From assembly GCA_020445785.1 (NCBI GenBank), contig JAGRFZ010000017.1, positions 51,741 to 98,428 of the forward strand: a stretch of 46,688 nt of DNA, in the 5' to 3' direction. Position 1 is the stretch's first letter; each line of letters begins with the position of its first letter. The position numbers and the translations under genes are program-made. Shown one piece after another: positions 1 to 15,699 of the stretch. The notes below the pieces were generated by a model, which was given only the letters and a program-made list of their open reading frames with translations, was not told where the DNA came from and did not search any database. This DNA is from Rhodocyclaceae bacterium (GTDB lineage Bacteria > Pseudomonadota > Gammaproteobacteria > Burkholderiales > Rhodocyclaceae).

Positions 1-755
1 GTCGGTGACCAGCGAGACGGTGACGGGCGTGTCGCCTAGGCCCGCGTCGTTGGCCAGAACGGAAGTGGCTGCCGTATCGAGGGCGGTGGCCGTTCCGCCT
101 TCGGCAACGGTGATCGCGTCGGCGTTGGCCACCGGCGTGGCGTCACTCACCGGCGTGATCGTGATGCTGACCGTCGCGTCCGAGGTCTCGCCGTCGTTGT
201 CGGTCACCCGATAGGTGAAGCTGTCGCTGAAGTTCTCGGTGCCGTCGTGGGTGTAGCTGAAGGTGCCGTCGGCGTTGAGCGTCAGCGAACCGAACGACAC
301 GTCGGTGACGAGAGAGACGGTGACCGGCGTATCGCCCAGGCCCGCGTCGTTCGCCAGCACCGAGGTGGCGGCGCTGTCGAGCGAGGTGGCCGTGCCGCCT
401 TCGGCCACGGTGATGGAATCGGCGTTGGCGACCGGGGTCTGATCGCTGACCGGCGTGATCGTGATGCTGACCGTGGCATCCGAGGTCTCGCCATCGTTGT
501 CGGTCACCCGATAGGTGAAGCTGTCGCTGAAGTTCTCGGTGCCGTCGTGGGTGTAGGTGAATGTGCCGTCGGCATTGAGCGTCAGCGAACCGAACGACAC
601 GTCGGTGACAAGAGAGACGGTGACCGGCGTATCGCCCAGGCCCGCGTCGTTCGCCAGCACCGAGGTGGCGGCGCTGTCGAGCGAGGTGGCCGTGCCGCCT
701 TCGGCCACGGTGATCGCGTCGGCGTTCGCCACCGGTGTTGCGGTGCTGCCCGGGT
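1..755 (-). repeat. 300-bp tandem repeats inside the giant protein gene
   Basis: The same sequence recurs at 1, 301 and 601 with a period of exactly 300 bases (100 codons). Bases 301-600 and 601-715 are nearly identical, and bases 181-240 and 481-540 differ at only one or a few positions. Similarity ends at about 720-755, so this is the N-terminal edge of an array that continues beyond the window. Each encoded unit contains ANADxITVAEGGTATxLD and ends with a TFTYTHDGTENFSDSFTYRV-type segment, the pattern of bacterial cadherin-like or VCBS-type repeats. DNA-level identity implies recent duplication or gene conversion. Confidence 0.92.
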
Positions 756-3700
756 CGACCGTGATGTTGACGGTCCCCGTGCTCGAATTGGCCATCACTG
801 CGACTTCGCTGTCGACCAGCGCCGAGTCGTAGATGCGCAACGAGTCAAGAGCACCGCCGTAGTAGCGATCGACATCGAGGTCCTGACGGCTACCCACATA
901 AAGGTCGCCAGTCGGATTGACGCCGCCGGTACCACGGGTAGCGTCGCTCATCTTCAGATCGCCGTCGAGGTATACCTTGATGCCGCCCGCATCTACTGTC
1001 GCGGTATAGGTATGCCACTGGCCATCGCCGACAATGGACGAGATGTCGAACTGTAGGGCAAAGTTATCGAGCGAATCGTCACCGTCGCGGATCACCGTCC
1101 GAAGGACATTGGGATCGGAGGGGTGCGATGCTTCATTGACGAAGACATTGACGCTATTGAAGCCGCTGACATTGCCATGGCTGTACAGATACTGGAACAG
1201 GCCACCCGAGTTGTCGTCGAGCTTGAAATCGAAGGAGATCGTGAATTCGGCGCCGTAAGTGATATCGGGGATCTGCACATAGTCACCCGACTCGTTGAAC
1301 GACAAGCCGTTGCCGATCGATCCAGCGACCGTCGTCGTGCCGTTCAGCGTGCCGTCGGAGCTCCCGACACCATCGGTCGCAGTTCCGTCCAGGTTCCAGT
1401 AGTGCGACAGCGTGGCGTTGGCGTCGGCGTCGACGATGACATAGTCGAAGCTGTCGCCCCCGGTGTAGCCGGGATCCGGCGTGTAGGTGAGCGTACCGTC
1501 ACCGTTGTCCACCACGGCACCGTTGGTCGGCTGTGTGAACTCGACCAACGTAACGGCGCCGCCTTGCGAAGCGACATCGTTCGACGTCGGGTCAAAGACC
1601 AGGGGCGTGTCTTCCAGGGTCGACAGAAAATCATCCGTCGCGGACATCGGCGGGTTCGCGGCGGCAACGTCGATCGTCATCGTGTTTGCCACCGCTTCGG
1701 TGTCCTGCCCTCCGTTTGCCGTGCCACCGTCGTCCTGCACGCGGAACGTGAAGCTCGCCAGCGACGCCCCGCTGGTGCCTGCAGGCGGTTCATAGGTCAG
1801 CAATCCGAGGTCGATGTCTCCGGCATCGATCCAGTTGCCGGCGGCGAAGCTAGCGCCATTCCAGAGCAACTGGCCCTGGGCAGGTAGCGTGTCGATCCAT
1901 ACCCGCAGCAGATTGTCGCCATCGACATCGCCGAATCCGAAATCGGCTACGGCAAGCGTGTAGGCTGTGTCCTCGATGGCAGAGATCGTATTCGCCGAAC
2001 CAGATGGTGCGTCGTTCACGCCCGTGATGTTGACAGTGGTACTGCCCAGTGCCTGCAGCGCGCCACCGCTGCCTTGAGCCCCGCTGTTGCCGTCGTCGAA
2101 AGTCCAGTCGATCTGTACGCTGGCGGGCGGTGCGTCGCTGCCGTTGGCATAGGTGATCTGGCGCAGGACGTTGTCGACATCGGCAGATGTCGGAACCTCG
2201 CCATTGCCGTCGGTGAAGACAATCGCCAGTTGCCCCGACGTGCCCGTCGTGTCGAACGTGGCGATGACTTGTCCGTTCTTCACGAGGTTGGCAGCGGCCA
2301 GCGAGATGCCGTTGCCGTCGCTGAAGCCAAACGTGTCGTCTGCATCCGCGCCGCCGTTTCGCGCGAGGGTCAGGCTGGCGCCTGCATAGTTGCCATCGCC
2401 ACCGTTCAGGGCGTCGAGTTCGGCGTCGCTGACATCGACGTTGGCGTCCAGCACGACGGCCGCCCCCCCTTCGACGAATGTCGGGTTGCCATCGAGCGTG
2501 ACACCGAAACTCGGCGCGGAATTGGTATCGGCTACGTCTTCGACCGCGATCGTCAACACTTCGCTATAGCTGCTCACCCCCGAATCGGTCACGCGGACAG
2601 TCACCGTGTGCGACGTGCTGGTCTCGTAGTCCAGTAGCGAACCGTCTGCGACGGTGATGACACCGGTGTTCGCATCGATCGCGAAGCGGCCCCCAGCATC
2701 GTCGGTCAGATCGAAGGTATGGGTATCTCCGACATCCGCATCGAAGACGCCGGTCACATCGGCGACGCGGGTTCCGTTGGCCGAATTCTCCGGCACCGAA
2801 GCGCTACCGGTCGTGACCAAACGCATCACGATGCCGGTCGCGTCACCATCGACGTTATCGCTCTGCCACACGGCAATGACCTGCCCGGATGCGGTCACCG
2901 CAGCCTCCGGCTTCTTCTGATCACCGGCCGTCGTCTGGTTGACCACCACCTCGCCATCGATCTTGTTGCCGCCGGCGTCGAAGCGCTGGGCGAGAATGGC
3001 GGTACCGCCGCCGTCGCCCGAATCCGATTCCCAGACGACGACGAAGCCGTCGTCCGACGCGGTCACCGTCGATTCGTAGCGTGCCGCCGAGGCCGTCGTG
3101 TTGACCTGGAACTCGCTGACCACGACCGCGCCGCCGGCGTCATAGACAGTCGCCTTCAGTGCGCCAGCGTCATCATAGGTCACGACGAAGCCGCCACTGG
3201 CGAGTGCCGCGACGTCCGCGACGTTGTCGCCGCCGGGGAGCAGCAGCGCCGAGCGTGCGCTGCCATCCGCGTTCATGACCCGTGCCGAAACTGCCGTCGT
3301 GGTGCCGTCGTGGGTCCGCCAGACGGCGACGAAACCACCATCGTCGAGCTTGGCCAGCTCCACCTGCGCGCCGAACAGTCCCGTGCCGGAGGCGAGAGAG
3401 CCGACCGTGAATTGCGCGCCTACCGTGCTCCCCGCCAGGTCGAAGCGTTGACCGACGACTTCGTAGGTGCTGCCCGCCGTCTCGTTTGCCCAAACCGCGA
3501 CGAACTCGCTGTCGCTCAAGGCCAGCACGGCCGGCTGGTAGCCTTCATTGTCCCCATCGGCGCCGGGACTCACCTGGAATTCCGCCGTCGCTGGCGTGCC
3601 ATCGGCATTGAACACCCGGGCCTCGGTCCAGGCCCGCACGCCCGAGGTCTGATCCTGCCAGGCGACGACGAAGCCACCATCGCCGAAGGTCGTGACCGAC

Positions 3701-6700
3701 GGATTGGTCTCGGCGTCGCCCACTTCGCCGGTGACGAGGAAGTCGGCGATACGTACGCTGCCGTCCGCGTTGTAGACCTTGGCGTAGATGTTGTAGTTGT
3801 CGGCTGGCGTATTGGAGACCCAGGTCACGATGTAGCCACCGTCGGCGAGGGCGGCGATCGCCGGATCGATCTGGTCGGTCGTCGTGTAGGTATTGACGTC
3901 GATCTCGCTCCCGGCGTCCGAGTCGAACACGATGTCGGACGGCACAGCGTTGGCCACCACCACGGCCGCGAACTCCGACGAATCGGTGAAACTGACGTAG
4001 CTGCTGTCGCTCTTCGTCGCCGTGGCGCTTATGTAGGCACCCGCCGGAACACTCGCCGCAAGCGTGGTGTCGATGGTCGCATTGCCGGCGCCATCGGTGG
4101 CGACATTGGCGAATCCGAGGTAGGTCTGGCCCTCGCCGTGACCGGTGCCGTCCGCGCTGGCGTTGGCGAAGAACTCGATCCGGTAGTGGCTGTTCGCGTC
4201 GGAGTTCAAGGTGCCGGCGATGGTGATCTGCGTGCTGCCGTCGGTGGCGACCGACGCCAGCACCGGGAAGTTCTGACCGTTGTTGCTACCGGTGTCGGCG
4301 TCGCCGCCATCGTTGGTACTGAGCCCTTGCGCACCGATATCGATGCCTTGCTCGGTATTGTCGTAGATCCGGTTGCCGAGAACTGCGTTGCCGGTGCCGC
4401 TATTGACTCGGACGCCGTCCCATGCGCTGTTGGCGATCACGTTGCCGGAGCCCGGCGCCGTGCCGCCGACGACGTTGTTCGACGCGCTGCTGGAAAAATA
4501 CACGCCGGCTCTCGAGTTGGCGACTGCACCGGTGCCCGACGCATCCACGCCGATGTAGTTGCCGATGACGATGTTGCCGCTGGCCGTCGCGTCGATGATA
4601 CTGATGCCGTAGGTATTGCCGCCGATGACGTTGCGCTCGGCCGGCGTGCTGCCACCAATCGTGTTGTTGGCGCCGGCAACAGCGATGCCCTCGCCGCCGT
4701 TGGCTTCGCCGGCACCCAGATCGGTGCCGCCGGCGCCAAAGCTGCCGATGTAGTTGCCGACGATGGCGTGGTTGTCCGAACCCGCCTGGATGTTGATGGC
4801 CGAGCCGGAGAAATCGCGCAGCACGAAGCCACGAATGGTGCTGCCATCGGCCGTTGCAGTCAGGTCGAAGGCGGTGGCGGCGAGTTGGTTGGCATCGATG
4901 ATGATCCGCGGCGTACCCGAATAGCCCGGCTGAGTCCAGGCGTCGAGAACGACGCCTTCGGTGATCTGGGGCAGCGCCGACGACAGCGAGATCGTCTGCG
5001 TTCCACTGCCGATTGCGAATTCGATGGTGTCGGCGCCGCCGCTGGCGTTGGCGTCGAGGATCGCCTGGCGCAGCGAGCCGCTGCCACTGTCGTTGGTATT
5101 GGTGACGACGAAGGTCTGCGGTGCGGGCGGGACGTATTCGTAAGCGCCGATATCCGGGTTGGCGTCGCGGGTCACGCCGCGCTGGTCGACGGTCTGTGTC
5201 GAACCCGTGGCGGCACCGTAGGCGGCGCTCGAGGTCGTGATCGCATGCACATGGGTGCCGCCATCCGCGGTCAGTGTGGCCGCGATGCCGCCGTCGGAGC
5301 CGGTCGTGTCGGTGCCGGCCAGGCCGGTCACGCCGATGGCATTCTCGATGATGTTGTAGCCGCCGCTGACGATCGCGCCGTCGATGTCCTGCTCGGGGTT
5401 CGGTGCACTGTTGTTGGCGCCGATGCTGTAGCGCATGTTGACGGTGGCGCCGTTCGAGAACAGCCCGCCGCCGCCACCGATGTTGGAAATCGAGTTGTTG
5501 GCGATCGTCACGTGCTCTAGGTTCAGCGTGCCGGCCAGCGCCTCGATGCCGGCGCCATTGAATTCCGCCGTGTTGCCGCTGATCGTGACGTTGATCAGCG
5601 TCGTGGTGCCGCCATTGACCGACAGCGCACCACCGTTCGTGGCGGAGTTGTTGATCAGCGCCGAATTGGTCAGGGTCGCCGCGCCGCCATCGATGTAGAC
5701 CGCGCCGCCATCCGCGTTGGTCACCGCCAGGTTGTCGAACACGACATTGGTCGCGCTCAGGATGCCCGTGCTGTAGACGCCGCCGCCGGGAATGTTGGTC
5801 GTGTTGGCGTCGGCGACGGTCAGGTCGGCGAGCGTCAGCAAACCGCCGCCCTTGACGTCGAAGATCCGGTCGCTGATCCCGGCGCCGCTGATCGTCGTCG
5901 AGCCAGCGCCGGCGCCCTGGATCGTGATGTCGCGGGTGATGTCCAGGTCACCGGTGGTGGCGGCATCCTCGAACTGGCCGGTGACCGACAGCGTATGGGT
6001 ACCCGAGCCGAGCGTGATGGATACCGGATCGATCGTGTTGTTGGCCGCGATCACCGCCTCGCGCAGCGAGATGTTGCCATCCGTGCCCCGGTTGGCGAGC
6101 AGCCAGCTCACCGTGTGCGTGGCGTTGCCGGCCACCACCCCGGCATCGTTGTTGTCGGTGATGGTGGTGACCGTCACGTCGACGCTCACCCCGGTGTAGC
6201 TGTAGAGCTCGCTGATGTCGCCGGCGCCGAGCGCGCGGTCGTAGATCCGCACGTCGTCCACCAACCCATCGTAGTCGCCGCTGGAAGCACTGCTCGCGCC
6301 GAATCGCAGCGGCTCACTGCTGCTGGCATCGCCGATGGCGGTCGTATCGGTCGCTGCCGAGGCGCCGTCGATGAACAGCTCGAAGTTGTCGCCCGAGCGC
6401 ACCGCGGTGAACAGATGCCAGTTGCTGTCGAGCGGCGCAGCCGTCCAAAAAGTGGTCGAACCGCCGCTGCCGGTGACGAACCAGTTGATGTCGCCGAAGC
6501 TGTCGGTGAACACGACGAAGCCGTCGCTGCCGGCCGATTGGCCCACCAGACGGACCTGGCTACTCGGCGTCTGCGCGCTGTTGAACCAGAACGACACCGA
6601 GAAGTCCCCGGAAAGGTCGTAGGCCGCGCTGTCCGGCACCTCCACCCGGTCGAAATCGCCGCCGAAGTTCAGTGCGCCGGAGCCGACGCGGCCGGCAACC

Positions 6701-7467
6701 CAGGTCGGCCCGCTAAGCAGCGTACCGTCGTTGCCTGTGGCGCTCGAATCGCCGGCGATGGTACCGCTGCCCTCGTCGAAGGTGAAGTGGCCGACCAGGC
6801 CGGTGGTAATGTCTAGCAGGCCCGACCAGGCCTGCACGGCGGAGATCGAGAACAACTGGGGTGAAGCGACTTCCCCCACCCGAAATTCGAGGTCCCAGTC
6901 GCCGCCCAGCGTGGCCGCGCCGGTAAGGTCGTCGGAGGCGGCCACGTCGGCGCCGGTGAGTGCGGCCAAGTCGCGAACGAAGGCCTGCCCGGCCTCGTCT
7001 TCGGCCACATCGCAGCCATAGATCAGGAGGTCGGCGTCGGTGCCGAGCGCGTCGCCCCAGGCGGCGATCTCGGTGCTGCGCGATGCCAGGGTGGCGTCGT
7101 CGAGGTCGACCGAGCCGAGCGCGAGGCGACCGTTGCCTCCATGGGTAAAGAGGTGGATCGCGGATACGTCACGGTACTGGGCGAGTGCATTGCCGATCTG
7201 ATCGATGCCGTCCCCGTCGGGCTCGAGCATCACGATCTCGAGCGTACGCCCCCCCCCTTCTTCCGCCTGCAGTGCAGCCAGCAGGCCACCCACGTTTTCG
7301 AGGCCGGCATCGACGAAAGCGACCTCGATCGCCCCATCCTGCTCTTGGTCGCGATGGTGGGCCACCAGCGCCGAGTCGATGCCGGCATGGGGCGCCAGGT
7401 CGGCCGAGAACAGCACCCGTGCCTCGAGCTCCTCGGCGGCCAACGTTCGCCTTGCTCGCACCGCCAT
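1..7467 (-). CDS. Giant DUF4347/LamG/cadherin-like repeat surface or secreted protein (3' end outside window)
   Basis: The frame is open from an ATG at 7467 to the left edge (2489 codons seen, stop not in window). GGAGGTG lies 3-4 bases before the ATG. There is no classical signal peptide. Residues 10-23 read AAEELEARVLFSAD, resembling the LEPR-XLL motif at the N-terminus of very large exported proteins. A DUF4347-like domain covers about 46-196 (HLFTHGGNGRLALG near 105, LIYGCD near 147). Then come a LamG-type domain (about 220-412), two right-handed beta-helix stretches with SLREA/SLRQA motifs (about 426-780 and 790-1045), a beta-propeller-like region (about 1180-1530), a cadherin-like domain (about 1553-1643), Ig/cadherin-like modules, a second LamG (about 2005-2235), and 100-residue repeats from about 2240 onward. 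It is last in a five-gene operon of export-type genes, so it is probably their cargo. Role is likely adhesion or matrix, which is inference. Whether the C-terminus carries an RTX or type I signal cannot be seen. Confidence 0.9.
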   Translation of the reverse strand, partial: MAVRARRTLAAEELEARVLFSADLAPHAGIDSALVAHHRDQEQDGAIEVAFVDAGLENVGGLLAALQAEEGGGRTLEIVMLEPDGDGIDQIGNALAQYRDVSAIHLFTHGGNGRLALGSVDLDDATLASRSTEIAAWGDALGTDADLLIYGCDVAEDEAGQAFVRDLAALTGADVAASDDLTGAATLGGDWDLEFRVGEVASPQLFSISAVQAWSGLLDITTGLVGHFTFDEGSGTIAGDSSATGNDGTLLSGPTWVAGRVGSGALNFGGDFDRVEVPDSAAYDLSGDFSVSFWFNSAQTPSSQVRLVGQSAGSDGFVVFTDSFGDINWFVTGSGGSTTFWTAAPLDSNWHLFTAVRSGDNFELFIDGASAATDTTAIGDASSSEPLRFGASSASSGDYDGLVDDVRIYDRALGAGDISELYSYTGVSVDVTVTTITDNNDAGVVAGNATHTVSWLLANRGTDGNISLREAVIAANNTIDPVSITLGSGTHTLSVTGQFEDAATTGDLDITRDITIQGAGAGSTTISGAGISDRIFDVKGGGLLTLADLTVADANTTNIPGGGVYSTGILSATNVVFDNLAVTNADGGAVYIDGGAATLTNSALINNSATNGGALSVNGGTTTLINVTISGNTAEFNGAGIEALAGTLNLEHVTIANNSISNIGGGGGLFSNGATVNMRYSIGANNSAPNPEQDIDGAIVSGGYNIIENAIGVTGLAGTDTTGSDGGIAATLTADGGTHVHAITTSSAAYGAATGSTQTVDQRGVTRDANPDIGAYEYVPPAPQTFVVTNTNDSGSGSLRQAILDANASGGADTIEFAIGSGTQTISLSSALPQITEGVVLDAWTQPGYSGTPRIIIDANQLAATAFDLTATADGSTIRGFVLRDFSGSAINIQAGSDNHAIVGNYIGSFGAGGTDLGAGEANGGEGIAVAGANNTIGGSTPAERNVIGGNTYGISIIDATASGNIVIGNYIGVDASGTGAVANSRAGVYFSSSASNNVVGGTAPGSGNVIANSAWDGVRVNSGTGNAVLGNRIYDNTEQGIDIGAQGLSTNDGGDADTGSNNGQNFPVLASVATDGSTQITIAGTLNSDANSHYRIEFFANASADGTGHGEGQTYLGFANVATDGAGNATIDTTLAASVPAGAYISATATKSDSSYVSFTDSSEFAAVVVANAVPSDIVFDSDAGSEIDVNTYTTTDQIDPAIAALADGGYIVTWVSNTPADNYNIYAKVYNADGSVRIADFLVTGEVGDAETNPSVTTFGDGGFVVAWQDQTSGVRAWTEARVFNADGTPATAEFQVSPGADGDNEGYQPAVLALSDSEFVAVWANETAGSTYEVVGQRFDLAGSTVGAQFTVGSLASGTGLFGAQVELAKLDDGGFVAVWRTHDGTTTAVSARVMNADGSARSALLLPGGDNVADVAALASGGFVVTYDDAGALKATVYDAGGAVVVSEFQVNTTASAARYESTVTASDDGFVVVWESDSGDGGGTAILAQRFDAGGNKIDGEVVVNQTTAGDQKKPEAAVTASGQVIAVWQSDNVDGDATGIVMRLVTTGSASVPENSANGTRVADVTGVFDADVGDTHTFDLTDDAGGRFAIDANTGVITVADGSLLDYETSTSHTVTVRVTDSGVSSYSEVLTIAVEDVADTNSAPSFGVTLDGNPTFVEGGAAVVLDANVDVSDAELDALNGGDGNYAGASLTLARNGGADADDTFGFSDGNGISLAAANLVKNGQVIATFDTTGTSGQLAIVFTDGNGEVPTSADVDNVLRQITYANGSDAPPASVQIDWTFDDGNSGAQGSGGALQALGSTTVNITGVNDAPSGSANTISAIEDTAYTLAVADFGFGDVDGDNLLRVWIDTLPAQGQLLWNGASFAAGNWIDAGDIDLGLLTYEPPAGTSGASLASFTFRVQDDGGTANGGQDTEAVANTMTIDVAAANPPMSATDDFLSTLEDTPLVFDPTSNDVASQGGAVTLVEFTQPTNGAVVDNGDGTLTYTPDPGYTGGDSFDYVIVDADANATLSHYWNLDGTATDGVGSSDGTLNGTTTVAGSIGNGLSFNESGDYVQIPDITYGAEFTISFDFKLDDNSGGLFQYLYSHGNVSGFNSVNVFVNEASHPSDPNVLRTVIRDGDDSLDNFALQFDISSIVGDGQWHTYTATVDAGGIKVYLDGDLKMSDATRGTGGVNPTGDLYVGSRQDLDVDRYYGGALDSLRIYDSALVDSEVAVMANSSTGTVNITVDPGSTATPVANADAITVAEGGTATSLDSAATSVLANDAGLGDTPVTVSLVTDVSFGSLTLNADGTFTYTHDGTENFSDSFTYRVTDNDGETSDATVSITITPVSDQTPVANADSITVAEGGTATSLDSAATSVLANDAGLGDTPVTVSLVTDVSFGSLTLNADGTFSYTHDGTENFSDSFTYRVTDNDGETSDATVSITITPVSDATPVANADAITVAEGGTATALDTAATSVLANDAGLGDTPVTVSLVTD

Positions 7468-7469
7468 CG

Positions 7470-8378
7470 TCACCTCCGCGCCGGCAGGCCGGTCAGCTTG
7501 AGATCGACGTTCAGACCGCTACGGCGCAGGCCCCGCAGATCGCCGGCCGATTCGGGCTCGATCGCGGATCGCTCGTCGAATGCGACCCGGCAGCGCGCAC
7601 CGGCAGGAACACCGCCATCTCGGTTGTCCACCGCGAGGCGGACCCGGAAGGTATTGCTGGCCGGGTCGACGATCGGATCCACCAGCCGCACCGTGGCCTG
7701 AACCGCACGCATCCCCGGCAGGTCCGGCAAAACGGTTGCAGGCATGCCCGGCCGGATGCTGCCGAAGCGGGCCGCCGGCACCACGACCTCGACGCGCAAT
7801 CGGTCGATCGATGCCAATCGCAGCAGCGGCCGATCCTCGACCCGCTCCCCCGGCTGAACCATGCGGTCCACGACGACGCCGTCGAACGGCGCCTTGAGCA
7901 CGCGTTGGTGGAGCTGGGCACGGGCCAGCCGTGCCTCACTGCCAAAGACCTGAAGTTGCTCCCGACTCTGGTCCACCTGTTGCTCGGCAACCTTGAGTTC
8001 GGCCCGCGCCTGGTCCAGTGCCTGATTCGAGATGAACTTCTTGCGGTAAAGATCCTGCGAGCGCGCGAATTGGCTGCGGGCGAGCTCGAGACCGGCCTCC
8101 GCCGCTCGCAATTCGGCGGCAACCCGAGCACGCCGCTGGGCCACCTCGAGGCTCGCCTGCTCGACCCGCGACTGCAGTACGGCCAGCACCTGATCCTTGC
8201 TGACCCGATCACCGCGGTCGACCAGCACCGATTCGACCACGCCGACGACCGGCGTGCCGATATCCGCCTGCTGCTCGGGCATGATCAGGCAGCCCAGCGG
8301 CACCGCAGCAGCCGTGCCGACCGTGGCGGCCCAGACGATGGCGAAGCTCAAGAGTCTGTCGAATACGCGAGGAATCAC
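7470..8378 (-). CDS. HlyD/RND-type periplasmic adaptor (membrane fusion) protein
   Basis: 302 residues from a GTG at 8378 that overlaps the TGA of the SecA-like gene (GTGA), so translation is probably coupled. The longer open frame upstream is only the shadow of the SecA-like gene. An N-terminal hydrophobic stretch (about 8-27) would anchor the protein in the inner membrane. Next come a lipoyl-like half motif (GVVESVLVDRGDRVSKDQVL), a long alpha-helical hairpin rich in Ala, Gln, Arg and Glu (about 55-140), the second lipoyl half (LKAPFDGVVVDRMVQPGERV) and a beta-barrel segment (VEVVVPAARFGSIRPGMPA). This is the usual adaptor order. Its stop lies 2 bases before the start of the giant protein gene. 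No transporter or outer-membrane partner of the usual kind is adjacent. Assignment to the adaptor superfamily is firm; the substrate is inferred from the operon. Confidence 0.88.
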   Translation of the reverse strand: MIPRVFDRLLSFAIVWAATVGTAAAVPLGCLIMPEQQADIGTPVVGVVESVLVDRGDRVSKDQVLAVLQSRVEQASLEVAQRRARVAAELRAAEAGLELARSQFARSQDLYRKKFISNQALDQARAELKVAEQQVDQSREQLQVFGSEARLARAQLHQRVLKAPFDGVVVDRMVQPGERVEDRPLLRLASIDRLRVEVVVPAARFGSIRPGMPATVLPDLPGMRAVQATVRLVDPIVDPASNTFRVRLAVDNRDGGVPAGARCRVAFDERSAIEPESAGDLRGLRRSGLNVDLKLTGLPARR

Positions 8379-10270
8379 TGTTCCCTGTTTCCAATGGCAA
8401 AATGCTCGTCCCACTCGGTATCCCGGGCCAGCAGACGCGCGCGGTCCCGCGCCGACCGGCGTTCGCTCGCGAACTGGTGGCAAGCCAACACGAATCGAGC
8501 GGTGTGCGCGGCGATCGGCGCCATGCGTGCGCCCAGCAGCGTGGAACACAATCTCATTAACGGCAGCCGATTCCCATTCATGAGACCGGCCACCAGCCAT
8601 TGCTCGAAGCTGCCGGGGTCGCCCTGGCGGGCACAGCGGCCCGCCAACTGGCGGTCGAGGCGTCGACTCGGATTGCACTGCAAGCTCAGCACATGCAGGC
8701 CGCCGCTCCGTAGTGTCTCGGCGCCGAGGCGAATGTCGGTGCCGCGGCCTGCCATGTTGGTGGCGACCGTGACCCGGCCGGCCTCGCCCGCATGGGCAAT
8801 GACGGCAGCCTCTTCGCGGCTCTGGTCGGCGTTCAGCAGGCTGTGCTCGATCGCTGCCCGTCGGAGCATCGCCGACACCGAGCGGCTGGCCTGGACCGAA
8901 TCGGTACCGATCAGGATCGCCCGACGCGCCCCCACGAGGGTCGAGACACGAGCCACCAGCGCCTGCGCGAGTTGCGACTCGTCGGCCAGCAGGCGTGTCG
9001 GCAGAATCCGCCGGCGGTCGGGATGGTGGGTCGCCACGCGCATCAAGCGCACGCCGTAACACCTGGCAAGCTCGCGCCCCACCTCGGACAGCGTACCGCT
9101 CATGCCCGCTATCGTCCGGTAGCGGGGAAAGAAGCGCTGATAGGTGGTCTGCGCCAGGGTGTCGGCTTCGGCCGGCGGGCGCAGCCCTTCCTTGAGGGCA
9201 ATCAACGCGTGCAGTCCGCGCGACCAGATACGGCCCTCGGCGATGCGCCCACTGACCGGATCGACGATGCAGACTTCGCCGTCCCGTACCACGTAGTCGC
9301 GGTCACGATGATAGAGATGCCTGGCCGTCAGCCCCATTTCGACACATTCGGCCAGGTGGCGCTCGCTCAGCCATCGGCCCGGGGCCGCACCCAGCCGCGT
9401 GCGCCCGGCGTCGCTGAGGCGTGCCGCGCGTTGCGCGCGGTCGAGCCGAAAATGCTCGTCTTCGACCAGATCCCCAGCAAGACGCCAAGCCTGCCACCAG
9501 CGACTGCGGCTGTCCGCGTCGCGCCGCTCGGCCGACAGGATCAGGGGAACGCTGGCTTCGTCGATCAGCACGCTGTCGGCCTCGTCCACGAAGACGACGT
9601 CGAGTGCCGGCAATACCGGCTCCGCATCGCCCGGCCGAACCAGCCGACGCGCACTGGCGTCGAGGCTATCCGCCTCCGGGTGACCGGCCGCGCGGTCCCT
9701 CAGCCAGTCGAACACCACCGTGCGGGCGCAGGCATAGACCACATCGGCCCGATAGGCCTTGCGCCGCTCCGCCGGCGTGTCGGATTCATGGGCGGCAGCG
9801 ACACGAAGCCCCAAGGACTCGTAGAGCGGCTTCAGCCACTCGGCGTCGCGACCGACCAGATACTCGTTGGCGGTGATCACATGCACCCGGCGCCCGGCCA
9901 GGGCGCTTACCGCGGCCGCCAGCCCCGCCACCAACGTCTTGCCTTCGCCAGTCGCCATCTCCACCAGTTGGCCGTCGATCATCATCAGCGCCGCGAGCCA
10001 TTGGCCATCGAACGGAGAGATCCCGAGTTGCTCGCGGCAATGCCGATCGACCAGCGCGCAGGCTTCGACCCTGCGTGCCCCCTGCAGCCCGAAAAGCCGC
10101 AGTCGCGCGCGCCATTCACGATCGGCGCTCGCTTCACCACGCCAGCGGCGGACGCGCGCCAACTCCCGCCGATAATGGGCACGCCGCAGCCATTGCAGCA
10201 CGCCCGGGCCAGACTTCGATTTCTGGTGCTGCGGTGATCGCGGGCGCTGGCTGAGGGCTACCGAACCCAC
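8375..10270 (-). CDS. SecA-like preprotein translocase ATPase, short paralogue
   Basis: About 631 residues from a GTG at 10270 preceded by AAGGGG; a later GTG at 10201 is the alternative. The open frame extends further upstream, but that part is the shadow of the M50 gene. SecA hallmarks are clear: Walker A MATGEGKT, Walker B VVFVDEADSVLIDEASVPLI, a preprotein-crosslinking-type segment (DYVVRDGEVCIVDPVSGRI), AGMSGTL, the NMAGRGTDIRLG motif and a degenerate arginine-finger region GRCARQGDPGS, where SecA normally has GRSGRQGDPGS. Only about 80 residues follow NBD2, so most of the helical scaffold/wing and the C-terminal zinc-binding tail of housekeeping SecA (about 900 residues) are missing. 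It sits between two adaptor-type genes and the giant protein. I infer an accessory ATPase that drives or primes export of that protein. It is not the housekeeping secA. Confidence 0.9.
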   Translation of the reverse strand: MGSVALSQRPRSPQHQKSKSGPGVLQWLRRAHYRRELARVRRWRGEASADREWRARLRLFGLQGARRVEACALVDRHCREQLGISPFDGQWLAALMMIDGQLVEMATGEGKTLVAGLAAAVSALAGRRVHVITANEYLVGRDAEWLKPLYESLGLRVAAAHESDTPAERRKAYRADVVYACARTVVFDWLRDRAAGHPEADSLDASARRLVRPGDAEPVLPALDVVFVDEADSVLIDEASVPLILSAERRDADSRSRWWQAWRLAGDLVEDEHFRLDRAQRAARLSDAGRTRLGAAPGRWLSERHLAECVEMGLTARHLYHRDRDYVVRDGEVCIVDPVSGRIAEGRIWSRGLHALIALKEGLRPPAEADTLAQTTYQRFFPRYRTIAGMSGTLSEVGRELARCYGVRLMRVATHHPDRRRILPTRLLADESQLAQALVARVSTLVGARRAILIGTDSVQASRSVSAMLRRAAIEHSLLNADQSREEAAVIAHAGEAGRVTVATNMAGRGTDIRLGAETLRSGGLHVLSLQCNPSRRLDRQLAGRCARQGDPGSFEQWLVAGLMNGNRLPLMRLCSTLLGARMAPIAAHTARFVLACHQFASERRSARDRARLLARDTEWDEHFAIGNREQ

Positions 10271-12417
10271 GCTGCCCCTTCGGGTTCGAAATGGCTCAGC
10301 AGAAGCTGCCGAAGCCGCCGCCAGAGCTGTAGCGCGATGCTGGCGTCGCTGTGCTCGAAACGCACCTCGGCCCGCCCGCCGGAGAATTCGCCGACATGCC
10401 CCGGCAGGCGCAGGTCCACCCAGACGACGGCCTGCAGGGTCGTCAAGCCCTCGTCGTCGGCGACATCGACGCCCAGCACACCACCGGCCGCATCGCCGAG
10501 CGCGGCCGAAGGCAGGCGCATGCTGGCGGCCGGAACCTGGCCCAGCAACTCGGCCTGCAGGGGGTTGCCCGGTGCATCGGCGAGCCGGACCTGAATGCCC
10601 TGCAGATCCGCCAGCAAGGCCGCGTCGGCATGGGGCAATGCCGTGCGCACCCGGCTGGGCTCGCCATCGAAGACCATGCCGAAGGCCTCTCCCCGCGGCA
10701 GGAAGCGTCCGGCGAGATCGGCCTCGCGCGGAATCACCAGGCGGCCGCTGCGGGCGGCCCGGACCGTGAGCAGCCGAACCTGTTCGTTGACTCGGGCGAT
10801 CTCCCGCTGCAAGGAAACCAAGCGCTGGTCGATGATCGCGGCCCGCGCGGGGTCGCTGCGCAGATGGCGAAACCACTCGATCTCGAGCCCTTCGCGTTCA
10901 CGCGCGAGTTCCTGGCGCCGCGTCAGCAGTTGATCGTCACGCAGCCGAGCGACAATAGTGCCGGCTTCGACCCGGTCCCCGTCATGGCGTGCGAGCGCGT
11001 CGACGAAGCCCTCGGTACCGACACGCAGGCGGGCATCGTCGGGCAGCCAAACGACCCCCTGGGCCACGGTCACGTGGGGCACCTGGACCGCAACCAGGCC
11101 CAGCGGGAGGACGATCGCGAGCACCCCCGCCAGCAGCCGCGCACGCCAGCGGCTGGCCTCGGGCAGGCGTTCGTCGAGCAAGGCCTTGGAGGCGTTGAAG
11201 GCGGGTGTCAACAACAGGGACCAACCGAACCACGCCGCGGCCGCGAAGGCCAGCAGCGGCGCACGCCCCCCCAGCCAGAGGACGATGCCGCCGCACAGAC
11301 CGAGCCGATACAGCCAGGAGAGCGGCTGGTAGGCGACCAACCAGGGAAGTTCGCCCCGAGCTGCCATCAGCGGATCTGCGGCATTCAAGCCCAACAGGTG
11401 CCGGCGCAGGCCTTCGAGCCACCAGCGCCGCGAGCGGGTGGAAAGGTTCGGCAGATCGAGCGCGTCGACGAGCACGTAGTAGCCGTCGAATCGGAGCAAC
11501 GGATTGCCGTTGACCAACAGCGTGGACACTGCCGCCACCAGCATCACCACCGCGGACGCGTCCCGCACCAGACCCGGCTCCACCAGGCTCCATAGCAGCA
11601 ATGCCAGCGCCGCCAGCAGCAGCTCGGCGAGGATGCCGGCCGAGGAAACTGCCAGGCGCTGGTATCCGTGCCGGAATCCATTCGCGGCGGAGGCGTCGAC
11701 GAAGGGCACCGGCATCAGCACCAGCAGCGACACGCCCCACTCCCGGACCTCGCCGCCCCAGCGTCGCACCGCGAGGCCGTGGGCCAGTTCGTGCAGTAGC
11801 TTGACCGGTGGATAGATCAACCACGTCATCCACAGCAGGTTGCTGCCCCGTGACATTCGGGCAAGATGCGCCGACAAGGCATCGATCTGCAGCAGCGCGG
11901 CCATCAGCGCGACCGCGAGCGCGGCCGTGCACAGCCACAGGCCTGCCGCACTGAACAGGATTCGACCGAGCGGCGCCAGGCGACGCAATACGGCAGACGG
12001 ATCGCCGAGCCGCACCCGGAAGAACAGGGGGTTGAGTTCGCCGATACGCCGTCGGCGTTCGCGCTTGTTGCGACGCTCGAACACACTGCCGATGTCCGGG
12101 CGGCGATCGAAGCTCAACAGCCCGCTTTCCTGCAGCCGCACCATCAGACGCAACAATGCTTCCTGCGCCGGCAAGGACTCGCCGGCCTTACCAGCGAGAT
12201 GGTCCCATACCGCCTGGGCCGTCCTGTGACCGTCGCAACGGCCGATGAATGCGTAGGCGTCGGCGCCGAGACGAACCGCCCGATCGCTGGCTTCGTCGAT
12301 CAGCAGGTACCAGTCTTCGCCGCGGTAGCGCTGACGCTGTACCCGGATGTTGGCCCGCAGGCGTGGCTTGAGGGCCGCGACCCGATACCACATCGGGCTG
12401 AACAGCGTTTCCGTCAC
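10258..12417 (-). CDS. PqqD-like / M50 (site-2 protease-like) / HlyD fusion membrane protein
   Basis: 719 residues from a GTG at 12417. The ribosome-binding site GGGGAGG lies in the last codons of the upstream gene, which stops 3 bases earlier. The N-terminus (about 25-115) looks like a PqqD-type winged-helix domain (WYLLIDEASDRAVRLGADAY). A multi-pass membrane core follows with the zinc-protease motif HELAH at 209-213 and the second M50 motif NGNPLLRFDGYYVLVDAL at 303-320, where D311 is the likely third ligand. After more membrane segments (to about 450) comes a HlyD-like part with lipoyl half-motifs around a short helical hairpin. This architecture is known from putative peptide zinc metalloprotease proteins next to secretion and RiPP loci. 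It probably processes or hands over a client at the membrane. Its 3' end overlaps the SecA-like start by 13 bases. Protease activity is predicted from intact motifs only. Confidence 0.88.
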   Translation of the reverse strand: MTETLFSPMWYRVAALKPRLRANIRVQRQRYRGEDWYLLIDEASDRAVRLGADAYAFIGRCDGHRTAQAVWDHLAGKAGESLPAQEALLRLMVRLQESGLLSFDRRPDIGSVFERRNKRERRRRIGELNPLFFRVRLGDPSAVLRRLAPLGRILFSAAGLWLCTAALAVALMAALLQIDALSAHLARMSRGSNLLWMTWLIYPPVKLLHELAHGLAVRRWGGEVREWGVSLLVLMPVPFVDASAANGFRHGYQRLAVSSAGILAELLLAALALLLWSLVEPGLVRDASAVVMLVAAVSTLLVNGNPLLRFDGYYVLVDALDLPNLSTRSRRWWLEGLRRHLLGLNAADPLMAARGELPWLVAYQPLSWLYRLGLCGGIVLWLGGRAPLLAFAAAAWFGWSLLLTPAFNASKALLDERLPEASRWRARLLAGVLAIVLPLGLVAVQVPHVTVAQGVVWLPDDARLRVGTEGFVDALARHDGDRVEAGTIVARLRDDQLLTRRQELAREREGLEIEWFRHLRSDPARAAIIDQRLVSLQREIARVNEQVRLLTVRAARSGRLVIPREADLAGRFLPRGEAFGMVFDGEPSRVRTALPHADAALLADLQGIQVRLADAPGNPLQAELLGQVPAASMRLPSAALGDAAGGVLGVDVADDEGLTTLQAVVWVDLRLPGHVGEFSGGRAEVRFEHSDASIALQLWRRLRQLLLSHFEPEGAAWVR

Positions 12418-12420
12418 GGC

Positions 12421-13857
12421 TCAGCCTCCCCAGCGCCACCACAGCATGCCCAGTCGCTCCGTGAGCCAGCGCCAACCGGCTACCAGCACCGGCGCCCGAC
12501 CCACGGACACGCGTGCCACGCCCTGCAATCCGGGCCGCAGGCCGCCGCTGTCGCCGATCAGCTCGCCTTCCACACGAAACACGTTGGCGCCCTCGGAAAC
12601 CGCCGCCATCGGCGTCATCCGCACGATGCGCAGGGGATGCTGGCGATCGGGGTCGGCGCTGAGCACCATGGTCGCCGCCTGCCCCACCTTGACCCGACCC
12701 ACGTCGCGCTCGTCCACCTCCAGCGCCACGCGGTAGCCGCCGGCCGGAGCGATCGTCAGCAATACTTCGCCGCGACTCACCGGCGCGCCCTGCAACTGGC
12801 TGATGTCGCCGGCGATCACCACCCCGTCCATGCCGGCGACGATGCGGGTTCGCTCCAGCATCCGGCGCGCCAGTCCGAGCCGCGCACGGGCCTCCTCCGC
12901 TCGCGACATGCTCACCATCATCTCGCTGCGTTCGGAGCGCGCCAGCGACGCCATGTAGGCACTTTCGTGCTGTGCCAACTCGCTCTCCCAACGCTGCGCC
13001 TCGAGCCGGAGGTCCTGCGCGGCCAGTTCGATCAGCACCTGATCGGCGCGCACCTCGTCGCCCGGACGCACCCGCACCGTTTCGATGAAGCCCTCGATCG
13101 GGGCCACCACCGCGCGTTCGATCGACCCTTCGAGCCGGCTTCGCGCGCTGACATGCTGCGCGACCGGAACCAGTGCGCCCACCAGCAGCGCCACCACGAC
13201 CAGCGCCATTGCCCAGCGTGCACCCCGCCCGTCCTCGCTCGCCAGGCGTGGCTTGACCCCCGCCAGATACTCGCGCAGGCGCTGCAGCCCGCTACGTTCC
13301 TGCAGCCGCAACAGCCACAGCACCGGGCCGATCAGATCCACCAACTTTTCCATCGGCTGGGTGGTCAACGGCGTGATCGACGAGGTCTCGCTCCATTCGC
13401 AGCACACGGCACCGAGGCTCTCGCCGCGTACCCGCAAAGGCACGGTCTGGACAACCCCGCCCAGGTGGCTCCGCAAGCGGCGGTGGGCCGCCAGGATGCT
13501 CGGGCGCGACTGCGCCGGCTCCGGCAGCTGAAGCCCGCAGCCCTGCTGCGCGCACTCGTCCATGGCGTCCGCGATGTCGCCGCCGATGGTGCCTGCGAAC
13601 TCCGTTTCGCCGCCATGCGACACCGCAACCACCTGGATCAAGCCACCCTCGACGACACCCAACGAGACTCGGTCGCAGCCCAGCGACAGGGCCACCTCGG
13701 TAACGAACGCCATCGCCGCCGGCTGGAAGCGCTCCTGTGCGAGCGCGGCAGCCTGCGCCTTCAGCGCCAACACGGCAAAGTCGGGCCCCGCGCCGGCCTC
13801 GTGCGTCGACGCAGACTCTGCCGGCGATCTCGGAGGGGAAGCGATGGCAAGGTCCAC
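12421..13857 (-). CDS. GAF-domain HlyD-type membrane adaptor
   Basis: 478 residues if it starts at the GTG at 13857 (VDLAIASPPRSP). The frame stays open to 14052, but the extra N-terminus looks non-coding. No strong ribosome-binding site is visible, so the start is uncertain. The first 45-165 residues form a GAF-like sensor domain (CDRVSLGVVEGGLIQVVAVS, then VPLRVRGESLGAVCCEW). A helix, one transmembrane segment (ALVVVALLVGALVPVA) and a HlyD-type adaptor follow (APIEGFIETVRVRPGDEV, a coiled hairpin, then the second lipoyl half GMDGVVIAGDIS). Topology would place the GAF domain in the cytoplasm and the adaptor in the periplasm. As first gene of the operon it could couple a cytoplasmic signal to export. 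Ligand and partner are unknown. Confidence 0.85.
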   Translation of the reverse strand: MDLAIASPPRSPAESASTHEAGAGPDFAVLALKAQAAALAQERFQPAAMAFVTEVALSLGCDRVSLGVVEGGLIQVVAVSHGGETEFAGTIGGDIADAMDECAQQGCGLQLPEPAQSRPSILAAHRRLRSHLGGVVQTVPLRVRGESLGAVCCEWSETSSITPLTTQPMEKLVDLIGPVLWLLRLQERSGLQRLREYLAGVKPRLASEDGRGARWAMALVVVALLVGALVPVAQHVSARSRLEGSIERAVVAPIEGFIETVRVRPGDEVRADQVLIELAAQDLRLEAQRWESELAQHESAYMASLARSERSEMMVSMSRAEEARARLGLARRMLERTRIVAGMDGVVIAGDISQLQGAPVSRGEVLLTIAPAGGYRVALEVDERDVGRVKVGQAATMVLSADPDRQHPLRIVRMTPMAAVSEGANVFRVEGELIGDSGGLRPGLQGVARVSVGRAPVLVAGWRWLTERLGMLWWRWGG

Positions 13858-14166: not shown

Positions 14167-15327
14167 TTGAACTCGGTCACCATCAACGACACCACCCTGC
14201 GGGACGGCGAACAGACCGCGGGCGTCGCATTCTCCGCCGATGAAAAGATCGCCATCGCACGAGCCCTCGCCAGAGCTGGCGTGCCGGAAATGGAAATCGG
14301 CATTCCGGCAATGGGTGCACTCGAGCAGGAAGTGATCCGCGCGATCGTTGCGGAACGGCTACCCGCCGCGACGATGGTGTGGGGCCGACTGTGCGCCGAG
14401 GACATCGGCCAAGCGCGGAATTGCGGCGCCGATCTGGTCAACCTGTCGATTCCCGCATCCGATCGCCAGATCGGCAGCAAGCTGGGAAAGAATCGCGCAT
14501 GGGTGCTGGCGACCATTTCCCGCTTGCTGCCATTGGCGATGGATACGGGTGCTCAGGTCTGCCTCGGCTGTGAAGACGCCTCCCGGGCCGATCCGCAGAT
14601 GCTGTTCCGCATGATCGAACGGGCCGAACGCGCGGGGGCAAAACGCGTGCGCATCGCCGATACCCTGGGGGTGCTCGATCCGTTCACGACCCATCGACTG
14701 ATCGCGGCTTGCCGCGCCCGGAGCGATCTCGAAATCGAAATGCACGCCCATGACGACCTCGGCCTCGCGACCGCCAACACGTTGGCCGCCGCACTCGCCG
14801 GCGCGAGCCACATCAACACCACGATCAACGGTCTCGGGGAACGCGCCGGAAACGCCCCACTGGAAGAGGTGGTGGTTGCCTTGCGCCAACTCCACGCCAT
14901 CGACACCGGCGTCTCCTTCGCCGCGCTGTCACCGCTTTCACACCTCGTCAGCGAAGCGTCCGGGCGCCCGATCGCGGCCAACAAGAGCATCGTCGGCAGC
15001 GGCGTGTTCACCCATGAGGCCGGGATTCACGTCGATGGCCTCGGCAAGAACCCGCACAACTATCAGGCGCTCGACCCAATTTTGCTCGGCCGCGAGCACG
15101 CCATCGTGCTCGGCAAGCATTCGGGCACCGCCGCGGTACAGAGGGCATTTCGGGAGATGGGCATCGAGCTCGGCGCAAGCGAAGCTGGGCAACTGCTCGG
15201 CGAGATCCGCAGGTTCGCGATGGCTGCCAAGCGCGCGCCCGATGCGAACGAACTCGGCCTCCTGTACCGTCGCCTCGCCGGACCGCGGCTCCGGACGGCG
15301 AACGCCACCGCACCGACCGCGCCTTGA
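14167..15327 (+). CDS. nifV: Homocitrate synthase NifV
   Basis: 386 residues from a TTG start with GGAGAG about 6 bases upstream. The enzyme condenses acetyl-CoA with 2-oxoglutarate to give homocitrate, the organic ligand of the nitrogenase FeMo-cofactor. The HMGL-like signature NDTTLRDGEQTAGVAF (7-22) is intact, with R12, D13 and E15. The second signature HAHDDLGLATANTLAA and the metal/CoA region NGLGERAGNAPLEEVV follow, with HEAGIHVDG in the C-terminal part. Length fits NifV rather than the longer isopropylmalate synthases. No other nif gene is in the window, so the nitrogenase genes must be elsewhere if present. Alternatives are a lysine-pathway homocitrate synthase or a 2-isopropylmalate-type enzyme; the close NifV-like sequence and the sigma-54 promoter argue against these. 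Confidence 0.88.
   Translation: MNSVTINDTTLRDGEQTAGVAFSADEKIAIARALARAGVPEMEIGIPAMGALEQEVIRAIVAERLPAATMVWGRLCAEDIGQARNCGADLVNLSIPASDRQIGSKLGKNRAWVLATISRLLPLAMDTGAQVCLGCEDASRADPQMLFRMIERAERAGAKRVRIADTLGVLDPFTTHRLIAACRARSDLEIEMHAHDDLGLATANTLAAALAGASHINTTINGLGERAGNAPLEEVVVALRQLHAIDTGVSFAALSPLSHLVSEASGRPIAANKSIVGSGVFTHEAGIHVDGLGKNPHNYQALDPILLGREHAIVLGKHSGTAAVQRAFREMGIELGASEAGQLLGEIRRFAMAAKRAPDANELGLLYRRLAGPRLRTANATAPTAP

Positions 15328-15605: not shown

Positions 15606-15699
<94 letters not shown>

Follow-up and report, generated by a model that had tools for sequence, protein, structure and literature searches.

The stretch under study, hereafter the window, comprises 46,688 nucleotides of a Rhodocyclaceae contig (JAGRFZ010000017.1; G000:C21:51741-98428) and holds a five-gene operon, entirely on the minus strand as are all of its features located below, that runs from 13857 down past the left edge. 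The genes encode, in order, an adaptor with GAF and HlyD domains (GAF-HlyD), a fusion of a PqqD-like domain, an M50 protease and an HlyD module (M50-HlyD), a short SecA, an HlyD adaptor and a giant repeat protein. Comparison across genomes suggests that the cassette made up of the first four genes is probably a dedicated, envelope-spanning export machine, similar to type I secretion but free of an ATP-binding cassette (ABC) transporter, which serves giant proteins with an N-terminal leader motif, LEPR. In the genomes compared, LEPR giants without an evident Sec signal occur almost only where M50-HlyD is encoded, and nearly always close to it when the two share a contig. By this measure M50-HlyD, rather than SecA, is most strictly tied to the giants.

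The N-terminal motif of the giants, LEPRxL[LYF]SAD, is that of the NCBIfam model LEPR-8K (NF012209). In a phylum sample of 299 genomes, scoring up to three M50-HlyD candidates in each, M50-HlyD is found in 85, LEPR-8K in 49 and both in 47. M50-HlyD is thus present in 47 of 49 LEPR genomes compared with 38 of 250 others (Fisher test, 9e-29), and a LEPR match occurs in two of the 214 genomes that lack M50-HlyD. These exceptions are a frame of 64 residues (G504) and a genome that is 86% complete (G437). By genus, M50-HlyD accompanies LEPR in 28 of 29 cases, whereas of all 154 genera 44 have it (p 2.5e-18). A second sample, of 185 genomes from the class and with up to six candidates scored in each, gives 24 with M50-HlyD, 15 with LEPR-8K and 13 with both; all 12 that carry a short SecA have M50-HlyD and ten have LEPR-8K, as opposed to five of the other 173. 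LEPR-8K misses variant motifs, including that of the window genome, where it finds nothing at E <= 0.01 though the giants of relatives match; the pairing counts are therefore lower bounds.

Position was assessed for the 72 LEPR frames of at least 300 residues among the 76 listed for the phylum sample (four were dropped). Among the matches listed 35 of the 72 have M50-HlyD on the same contig; in 32 cases it is no more than 12 kb away, and the longest frame of this group has 15,251 codons. The longest LEPR frame overall has 19,427 codons (G289:C115), with no M50-HlyD on its contig among the matches listed. G107, with one M50-HlyD match, holds a second LEPR frame about 610 kb from the cassette, an arrangement that would fit a label acting in trans.

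When one genome per species was scanned with an M50-HlyD alignment, at least 588 relatives were found, and the best 80 were kept as named loci. Neighbouring genes were identified by six-frame hidden Markov model searches and the counts take only loci with enough flanking DNA (testable loci). The best 80 span Zoogloea, Accumulibacter, Methylobacterium, Thioclava, Marinobacterium, Dyella, Massilia, Desulfobulbaceae, Desulfomicrobium, Nitrospira and others, many of the carriers being metagenome assemblies. GAF-HlyD lies upstream of M50-HlyD in 70 of 71 testable loci, a short SecA lies downstream in 69 of 72 (the others being L064, L082 and L091) and HlyD is present in 51 of 56. The genome from which L064 derives, G198, has a short SecA on contig C152, which also bears a LEPR frame and may differ from the contig of L064. 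M50-HlyD was also found in every one of the other 11 short-SecA genomes in the class sample, adjoining SecA in ten; in G081 the SecA gene is on a different contig from GAF-HlyD, M50-HlyD, HlyD and a DUF4347 giant, which lie together (L034, L131). On these counts a conserved operon is made up of GAF-HlyD, M50-HlyD, short SecA and HlyD. LEPR-8K matches 44 of 50 genomes taken from named loci, several times in some (eight hits in G210, six in G203, five in G232), and two of the six misses (L079, L086) show a variant motif beside the cassette. These 50 were chosen by eye, mostly for longer contigs, and counted for LEPR-8K hits only; the set overlaps the other samples (L085 is the contig of G090), hence it is not independent.

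At the window locus GAF-HlyD and M50-HlyD are separated by three bases, short SecA and HlyD overlap by four, and the giant starts either at ATG 7467, two bases after HlyD, or at GTG 7473, with an overlap of four. With GTG 10270 as the SecA start, M50-HlyD and short SecA share 13 bases. An earlier note on this DNA had described five same-strand genes ending in a giant repeat protein, and all five lie where it placed them; the spacings of 2-4 bases that it gave hold for the other junctions but not, with that start, for M50-HlyD and SecA. It had also remarked on the absence of ABC and TolC genes. The window operon indeed has neither, but in several relatives TolC-type genes are in or beside it. 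The proposal of an undescribed system serving the giant was accompanied by a call to look for co-occurrence across genomes, and that search found recurrent linkage in many genera; no description of the gene set was found in the open-licence literature and, as far as searched, the pairing of LEPR with this cassette is new. The details of the proposal need revision with respect to TolC, partner and client. As to the partner, relatives such as G162, G119, G056 and G112 have HlyD, GAF-HlyD and M50-HlyD with a housekeeping SecA only. As to the client, DUF4347 occurs at 13 of 50 testable named loci, and of the 18 DUF4347 genomes in the class sample 14 have M50-HlyD. We have set it aside as the defining feature, the client apparently being better defined by the LEPR motif, with DUF4347 marking a subclass.

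The 5′ part of the window giant occupies 1..7467 (2,489 residues with DUF4347, LamG and cadherin repeats) and continues outside the window, whose first base directly follows a 124-N assembly gap. Past the gap it resumes with cadherin and Big repeats, followed by a hydrophobic segment and an acidic tail at the C-terminus, the two parts being read separately on either side of the gap. The DUF4347 domain (6814..7323) matches PF14252 with E 6.8e-52. Near the N-terminus is the LEPR-type motif LEARVLFSAD (7399..7428). A degenerate motif pattern matches nowhere else in the assembly, and its reverse gives no match at all.

Alignment of 39 leaders, taken from 19 of the 21 giants that lie downstream of a cassette, from 19 of 20 LEPR-8K hit windows and from the window giant, gives the consensus E-x-[LF]-E-P-R-x-L-[LYF]-S-A-D near the N-terminus. 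The leaders were chosen by a loose regular expression, which excluded L068, L106 and L165 and partly preset the glutamate, arginine and hydrophobic positions, so conservation is read from the free positions only: the glutamate two before the motif (92%), proline (77%), serine (97%) and aspartate (95%). The two downstream giants that fail the expression show CEPRILYSAD and LESRVLYSTD, and two of 162 control open reading frames from the same loci pass it. Giants at loci of the type without short SecA start with LEPRMMFDGA, LEPRVMFDGA, LEPRFMFDGA or LENRIVLDAA. The strongest 17-residue hydrophobic window, sought only between 30 residues ahead of the motif start and 45 past it, the true protein starts being uncertain, averages 1.07 and reaches 1.6 in one leader (1.64). 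A Sec signal peptide is not evident, because the windows of the other 38 are below 1.6.

The C-termini are of at least three types by eye, and the shared element found in the giants is N-terminal. A hydrophobic segment lies near the C-terminus in five, the window giant, L034, L050 (peaking at 1.48), L052 (by motif only) and L140, a feature that would fit a tether from which M50 releases the protein. Most other C-termini inspected have none, including the DUF4347 giants of L124 and L141. Among giants without a membrane anchor we note, again by eye, two recurring C-terminal motifs, one AGLAGW-like and the other, near the end, W[LV]xDF[LV], seen for example in the upstream giants of L085, L097, L115 and L120 and of L093, L105, L111 and L035. 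The groupings by leader motif, by type of C-terminus and by variant are our own.

M50-HlyD (10258..12417, 719 residues; model pLDDT 89) has an N-terminal domain (residues 16-107; 12097..12372) that is PqqD-like and resembles the leader-peptide-binding RRE/PqqD domains of pathways for ribosomally synthesised and post-translationally modified peptides (RiPPs). A profile of the protein matches the PqqD structure 3g2b at E 2e-4, and the domain is a candidate reader of the LEPR leader. A fold comparison with the whole protein is filled by matches to the HlyD domain, such that the membrane part is not covered. The zinc-protease motif HELAH (residues 209-213; 11779..11793) is in place, and His209, Glu210, His213 and Asp311 are invariant in 55 sequences as expected of M50 zinc ligands. 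Ten of 11 M50-HlyD proteins, the window copy included, match Pfam M50 at E <= 0.01. The upstream adaptor, GAF-HlyD (12421..13857, 478 residues), consists of a GAF-like domain, one hydrophobic segment identified by eye and an HlyD barrel-sandwich (Pfam HlyD_D23, E 3e-17). Ten such proteins, including that of the window, match Pfam HlyD without exception and nine match GAF at E <= 0.01. In the window copies the matches to M50 (E 5e-4) and to GAF (E 4e-3) fall short of the Pfam cut-offs; HlyD, the SecA domains and DUF4347 are backed by Pfam and NCBIfam. With the HlyD adaptor (7470..8378, 302 residues; TIGR01730, RND_mfp, above its cut-off) the cassette encodes three HlyD-type proteins, the adaptor type of type I secretion.

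The closest NCBIfam model to M50-HlyD is that of the daptide HExxH protease (NF041824), which raises the prospect that the protein, with its RRE/PqqD-like domain, belongs to a RiPP-like pathway of peptide maturation and export and that the giants adjoin it for some other reason. We judge this very improbable. The window protein scores 152.3 bits (E 1.9e-44), about half the curated cut-off of 300 bits, and the pairing with LEPR in 28 of 29 genera together with the closeness of the genes points to the giants; small precursor peptides were not searched for.

The short SecA (8375..10270, 631 residues) carries the Pfam NBD1, PPXD clamp and NBD2 domains, the start of the scaffold helix and the Walker residues of the SecA superfamily, with the Walker A motif GEGKT at 9935..9949. 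Both ATPase domains and the clamp are kept, and neither the helical wing nor the two-helix finger is present. The profile alignment stops at residue 608 of Bacillus subtilis SecA, and the model aligns to residues 14-614 of 3jv2 and 6itc, with a root-mean-square deviation of 3.2 over 583 residues to 6itc, the SecY-engaged form. In the class sample 26 genomes have a SecA match at E <= 1e-80. Twelve of these, the window genome among them, make up the short class: their matches have E below 1e-90 and their open frames run from 647 to 840 residues. The window genome has a housekeeping SecA as well; the remaining genomes have frames of 872 to 955 residues, typical of housekeeping SecA, or in one case a frame cut by a contig end.

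As roughly the last quarter to third of SecA is missing, the gene might be taken for a decayed, functionless copy. That is scarcely credible, and we reject a pseudogene, since the same truncation is shared by one group of 44 short sequences that a tree splits from 15 housekeeping SecA with 100/100 support; the G-E-G-K residues and Asp229/Glu230 are invariant in 50 sequences. The unrooted tree holds every other row of set A6, set A2 and eight further loci, with no SecA2, and L133 is a very long branch, the longest. The sequence in question (L133 6598-8313, G060) is a very divergent SecA-like gene of 571 residues that adjoins a distant M50-HlyD. Catalytic residues are conserved in both SecA and M50 across the sequences aligned.

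M50-HlyD proteins from the genomes of the class sample without short SecA are mostly more distant. At nine loci from such genomes GAF-HlyD was recognised in six (L124, L125, L127, L128, L130, L133) and HlyD in five, and neither was recognised at L126, L129 or the cut L132. Gene order varies among loci of this type, of which L141, L142, L143, L146 and L147 were read further, for the cassette region only. L140 (G412) has GAF-HlyD, M50-HlyD, HlyD and a DUF4347 giant without an intervening SecA. Because such M50-HlyD loci exist, we regard M50-HlyD as the constant partner and short SecA as a frequent addition.

Where might the chain cross the inner membrane? One SecY was found in 11 of the 12 short-SecA genomes, none in G081 and a second in none of them. 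The single SecY and the genomes without short SecA favour SecYEG as the channel; the missing finger and the want of an evident hydrophobic signal favour another. The channel is the weakest point of the mechanism. An arrangement in two steps has been considered, with short SecA as an accessory motor on SecYEG, in the style of systems with SecA2 only, which delivers the giant into the periplasm or to the inner membrane; HlyD and TolC would act second, and M50-HlyD would only trim or release the product. The clamp and both ATPase domains, the alignment with SecY-engaged 6itc, the solitary SecY, the M50-HlyD genomes that do without short SecA and the C-terminal hydrophobic segment of some giants all suit it. 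It is nonetheless unlikely, if not negligibly so, in our estimate: the leaders have no evident hydrophobic core, the short SecA has no finger, and fusion of HlyD modules to GAF and to M50 suggests a single connected machine.

A connection to the outer membrane is seen in relatives. PF02321 matches ten of ten picked neighbour genes of relatives and a gene of L039; of the OEP candidates picked from loci of the type without short SecA, all five match. In some relatives, on present sequence comparisons, TolC-type genes are part of the set, with no ABC exporter seen inside it. Plasmid pMSC49a of Methylosinus sp. C49 provides a complete example in the order giant, DUF3467, adaptor, PqqD-M50-HlyD, SecA, second adaptor (as annotated) and TolC. 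The giant has 8,847 residues and the leader LEPRVLLNAD; the first adaptor, of 629 residues, is above the RND_mfp cut-off (only the HlyD part was scanned, not GAF); SecA, of 638 residues, scores 597 bits to a SecA model with a cut-off of 814; TolC is above the cut-off of TIGR01844 (type I); and no ABC transporter is among the listed genes of the run. The public record lists this SecA-family protein (L171 18222-20138, NZ_AP022333) as a prepilin peptidase. On plasmid pDSM107133_a of Pseudosulfitobacter a giant of 12,737 residues (leader FEPRVLLSAD) is accompanied by DUF3467, adaptor, PqqD protein and SecA, followed by genes for sugar use that include a sugar ABC transporter.

Type I cargoes can exceed 8,000 residues, according to a review (PMC8277102), and it is conceivable that the giants leave through a conventional type I ABC exporter whose genes lie elsewhere, with the cassette only in control of, or releasing, them. 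LapD and LapG control LapA in this manner. The adaptors and TolC are like those of type I systems and a GGDEF-domain gene, of whatever kind, lies within 8 kb of nine of 44 testable named loci. An ABC ATPase motif (Walker A with LSGG), the sole means by which ABC genes near cassettes were sought, was found within 8 kb of three of the 44 and inside none of the cassettes; the complete plasmid set has TolC and no ABC exporter, with genome-wide ABC exporters not searched for; and the conserved signal is N-terminal. On balance this explanation is distinctly improbable.

The proposal of a dedicated machine can be put in more specific form, one that we hold tentatively and rate just short of even: an ABC-independent class of trans-envelope secretion in which M50-HlyD reads LEPR and a fingerless SecA, in many species, drives the giant N-terminus first through HlyD and TolC. 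The cytoplasmic RRE domain of M50-HlyD would bind the leader, in the way that RRE domains bind RiPP leader peptides, and dock the giant at the inner membrane. Short SecA would supply the energy and, lacking a two-helix finger of its own, might push the chain across by way of SecYEG, or by a channel formed in part by the membrane portion of M50-HlyD; where relatives have no short SecA, this task would fall to the housekeeping SecA. HlyD modules from three proteins would connect the inner-membrane complex to the TolC-type channel, by which the giant would travel N-terminus first to the surface. M50-HlyD would receive or cut the client, perhaps removing the leader near L-S-A-D or, in some giants, the C-terminal hydrophobic anchor and so releasing the protein. 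GAF, with GGDEF at some loci, may couple export to a cytoplasmic signal.

Several observations weigh against this interpretation. The evidence for export is wholly comparative, and it is from this that we infer export, an inner-membrane channel and the M50 substrate. The cassette encodes no inner-membrane channel and we know of no SecA without the two-helix finger that drives translocation. Short SecA is present in just 12 of the 24 M50-HlyD genomes of the class sample, the other 12 having housekeeping-length SecA frames or cut pieces only, save for the divergent G060 copy, and it is likewise absent from G210 and G235. In G116 and G177 neither a GAF-HlyD nor an HlyD neighbour was recognised. 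OEP genes lie within 8 kb of only five of 44 testable named loci and a same-strand frame of at least 1,000 residues is found at just 37 of 66. LEPR-8K has no match in 38 of the 85 M50-HlyD genomes of the phylum sample, some of which carry the variant motifs LEPRMMFDGA and LENRIVLDAA, and four of the 18 DUF4347 genomes lack M50-HlyD. In the fold comparison a non-RRE enzyme domain scores equal to RRE.

Turning to neighbouring genes, a small DUF3467 gene sits just upstream of GAF-HlyD at 22 of 116 loci scanned, of which L036 and L085 are one contig, and on both plasmids; a further hit (L064) is weak and not beside the cassette. It often occurs where the giant is upstream, for example at L171 13744-14064 and L170 13753-14094. 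No solved relative of DUF3467 was found (best E 0.32), leaving the idea of a SecB-like chaperone without a structural match. SapC-family genes lie within 8 kb of four of 44 testable named loci; PF07277 is confirmed for L038 12596-13315, and a profile built from L038 identifies SapC at L134, L136, L145, L148, L062, L081, L092, L111 and L118. Outside the window a PAS-GGDEF gene with a GGEEF motif (L004 13871-15406, minus strand) overlaps the end of the giant by four bases, and beyond it are plus-strand genes with CBS, DUF1538 and DUF2254 domains. Neither ABC nor TolC is among five further open reading frames scanned beyond the giant. At the other end of the cassette, and divergent from it, the window holds a homocitrate synthase-like gene (14167-15327, plus strand; HMGL and HCS_D2 domains) followed by a tRNA-Ser gene at 15610-15699.

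Export of the largest bacterial proteins is known mainly through ABC-driven type I systems. Here a widespread, ABC-free gene set tracks giants whose adjoining open frames reach about 15,000 codons and, if our interpretation is true, an ABC-independent system would carry single chains as long as about 15,000 residues. The gene set also offers a defined partner for the hitherto unexplained LEPR-XLL domain, which would then be an address label. Questions on a minimal SecA without a finger, on RRE domains that address large proteins and on a site-2 protease in a secretion complex become testable. The carriers include Zoogloea and Accumulibacter of activated sludge, methylotrophs and marine bacteria, where the giants may shape flocs and biofilms.

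How does the cassette compare with known systems? The giants share their N-terminal motif with LEPR-XLL/LEPR-8K (NF012209). LEPR-XLL is named, with no function attached in the passages concerned, for an RTX-domain giant of Vibrio about 8,000 residues long (PMC10868602) and for a Baikal transcript (PMC9611531). The daptide and epipeptide (YydH/LiaK) metalloproteases of RRE-guided RiPP pathways have the same PqqD/RRE and M50 architecture (NF041824); the cassette protein differs in adding a C-terminal HlyD module, in having a giant as partner and in a score well under the cut-off.

Like accessory Sec systems (SecA2 with or without SecY2), the cassette places a second SecA-type ATPase, with the clamp and both nucleotide-binding domains kept, near a presumed client. 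Mycobacterium tuberculosis SecA2 lacks the wing and keeps the finger. The cassette protein stops before the finger, whereas the solved SecA2 chains 6sxh and 4uaq extend well past the aligned part, and it adjoins HlyD and TolC. With no second SecY found in the 12 short-SecA genomes, we reject a SecA2/SecY2 type; action on SecYEG in the style of SecA2 alone is retained as a less likely alternative.

A further resemblance is to type I secretion (HlyB/HlyD/TolC, and LapBCE and similar for giant adhesins), with which the cassette shares HlyD adaptors, a type I TolC in Methylosinus and very large, repeat-rich proteins. We reject an ordinary type I label for want of an ABC exporter in the cassette. 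The review of tripartite and type I systems gives ABC, RND and MFS transporters as the energised inner-membrane component (PMC8277102). Many cassettes have a SecA-type ATPase, the conserved signal is N-terminal and the adaptors are fused to GAF and to RRE-M50.

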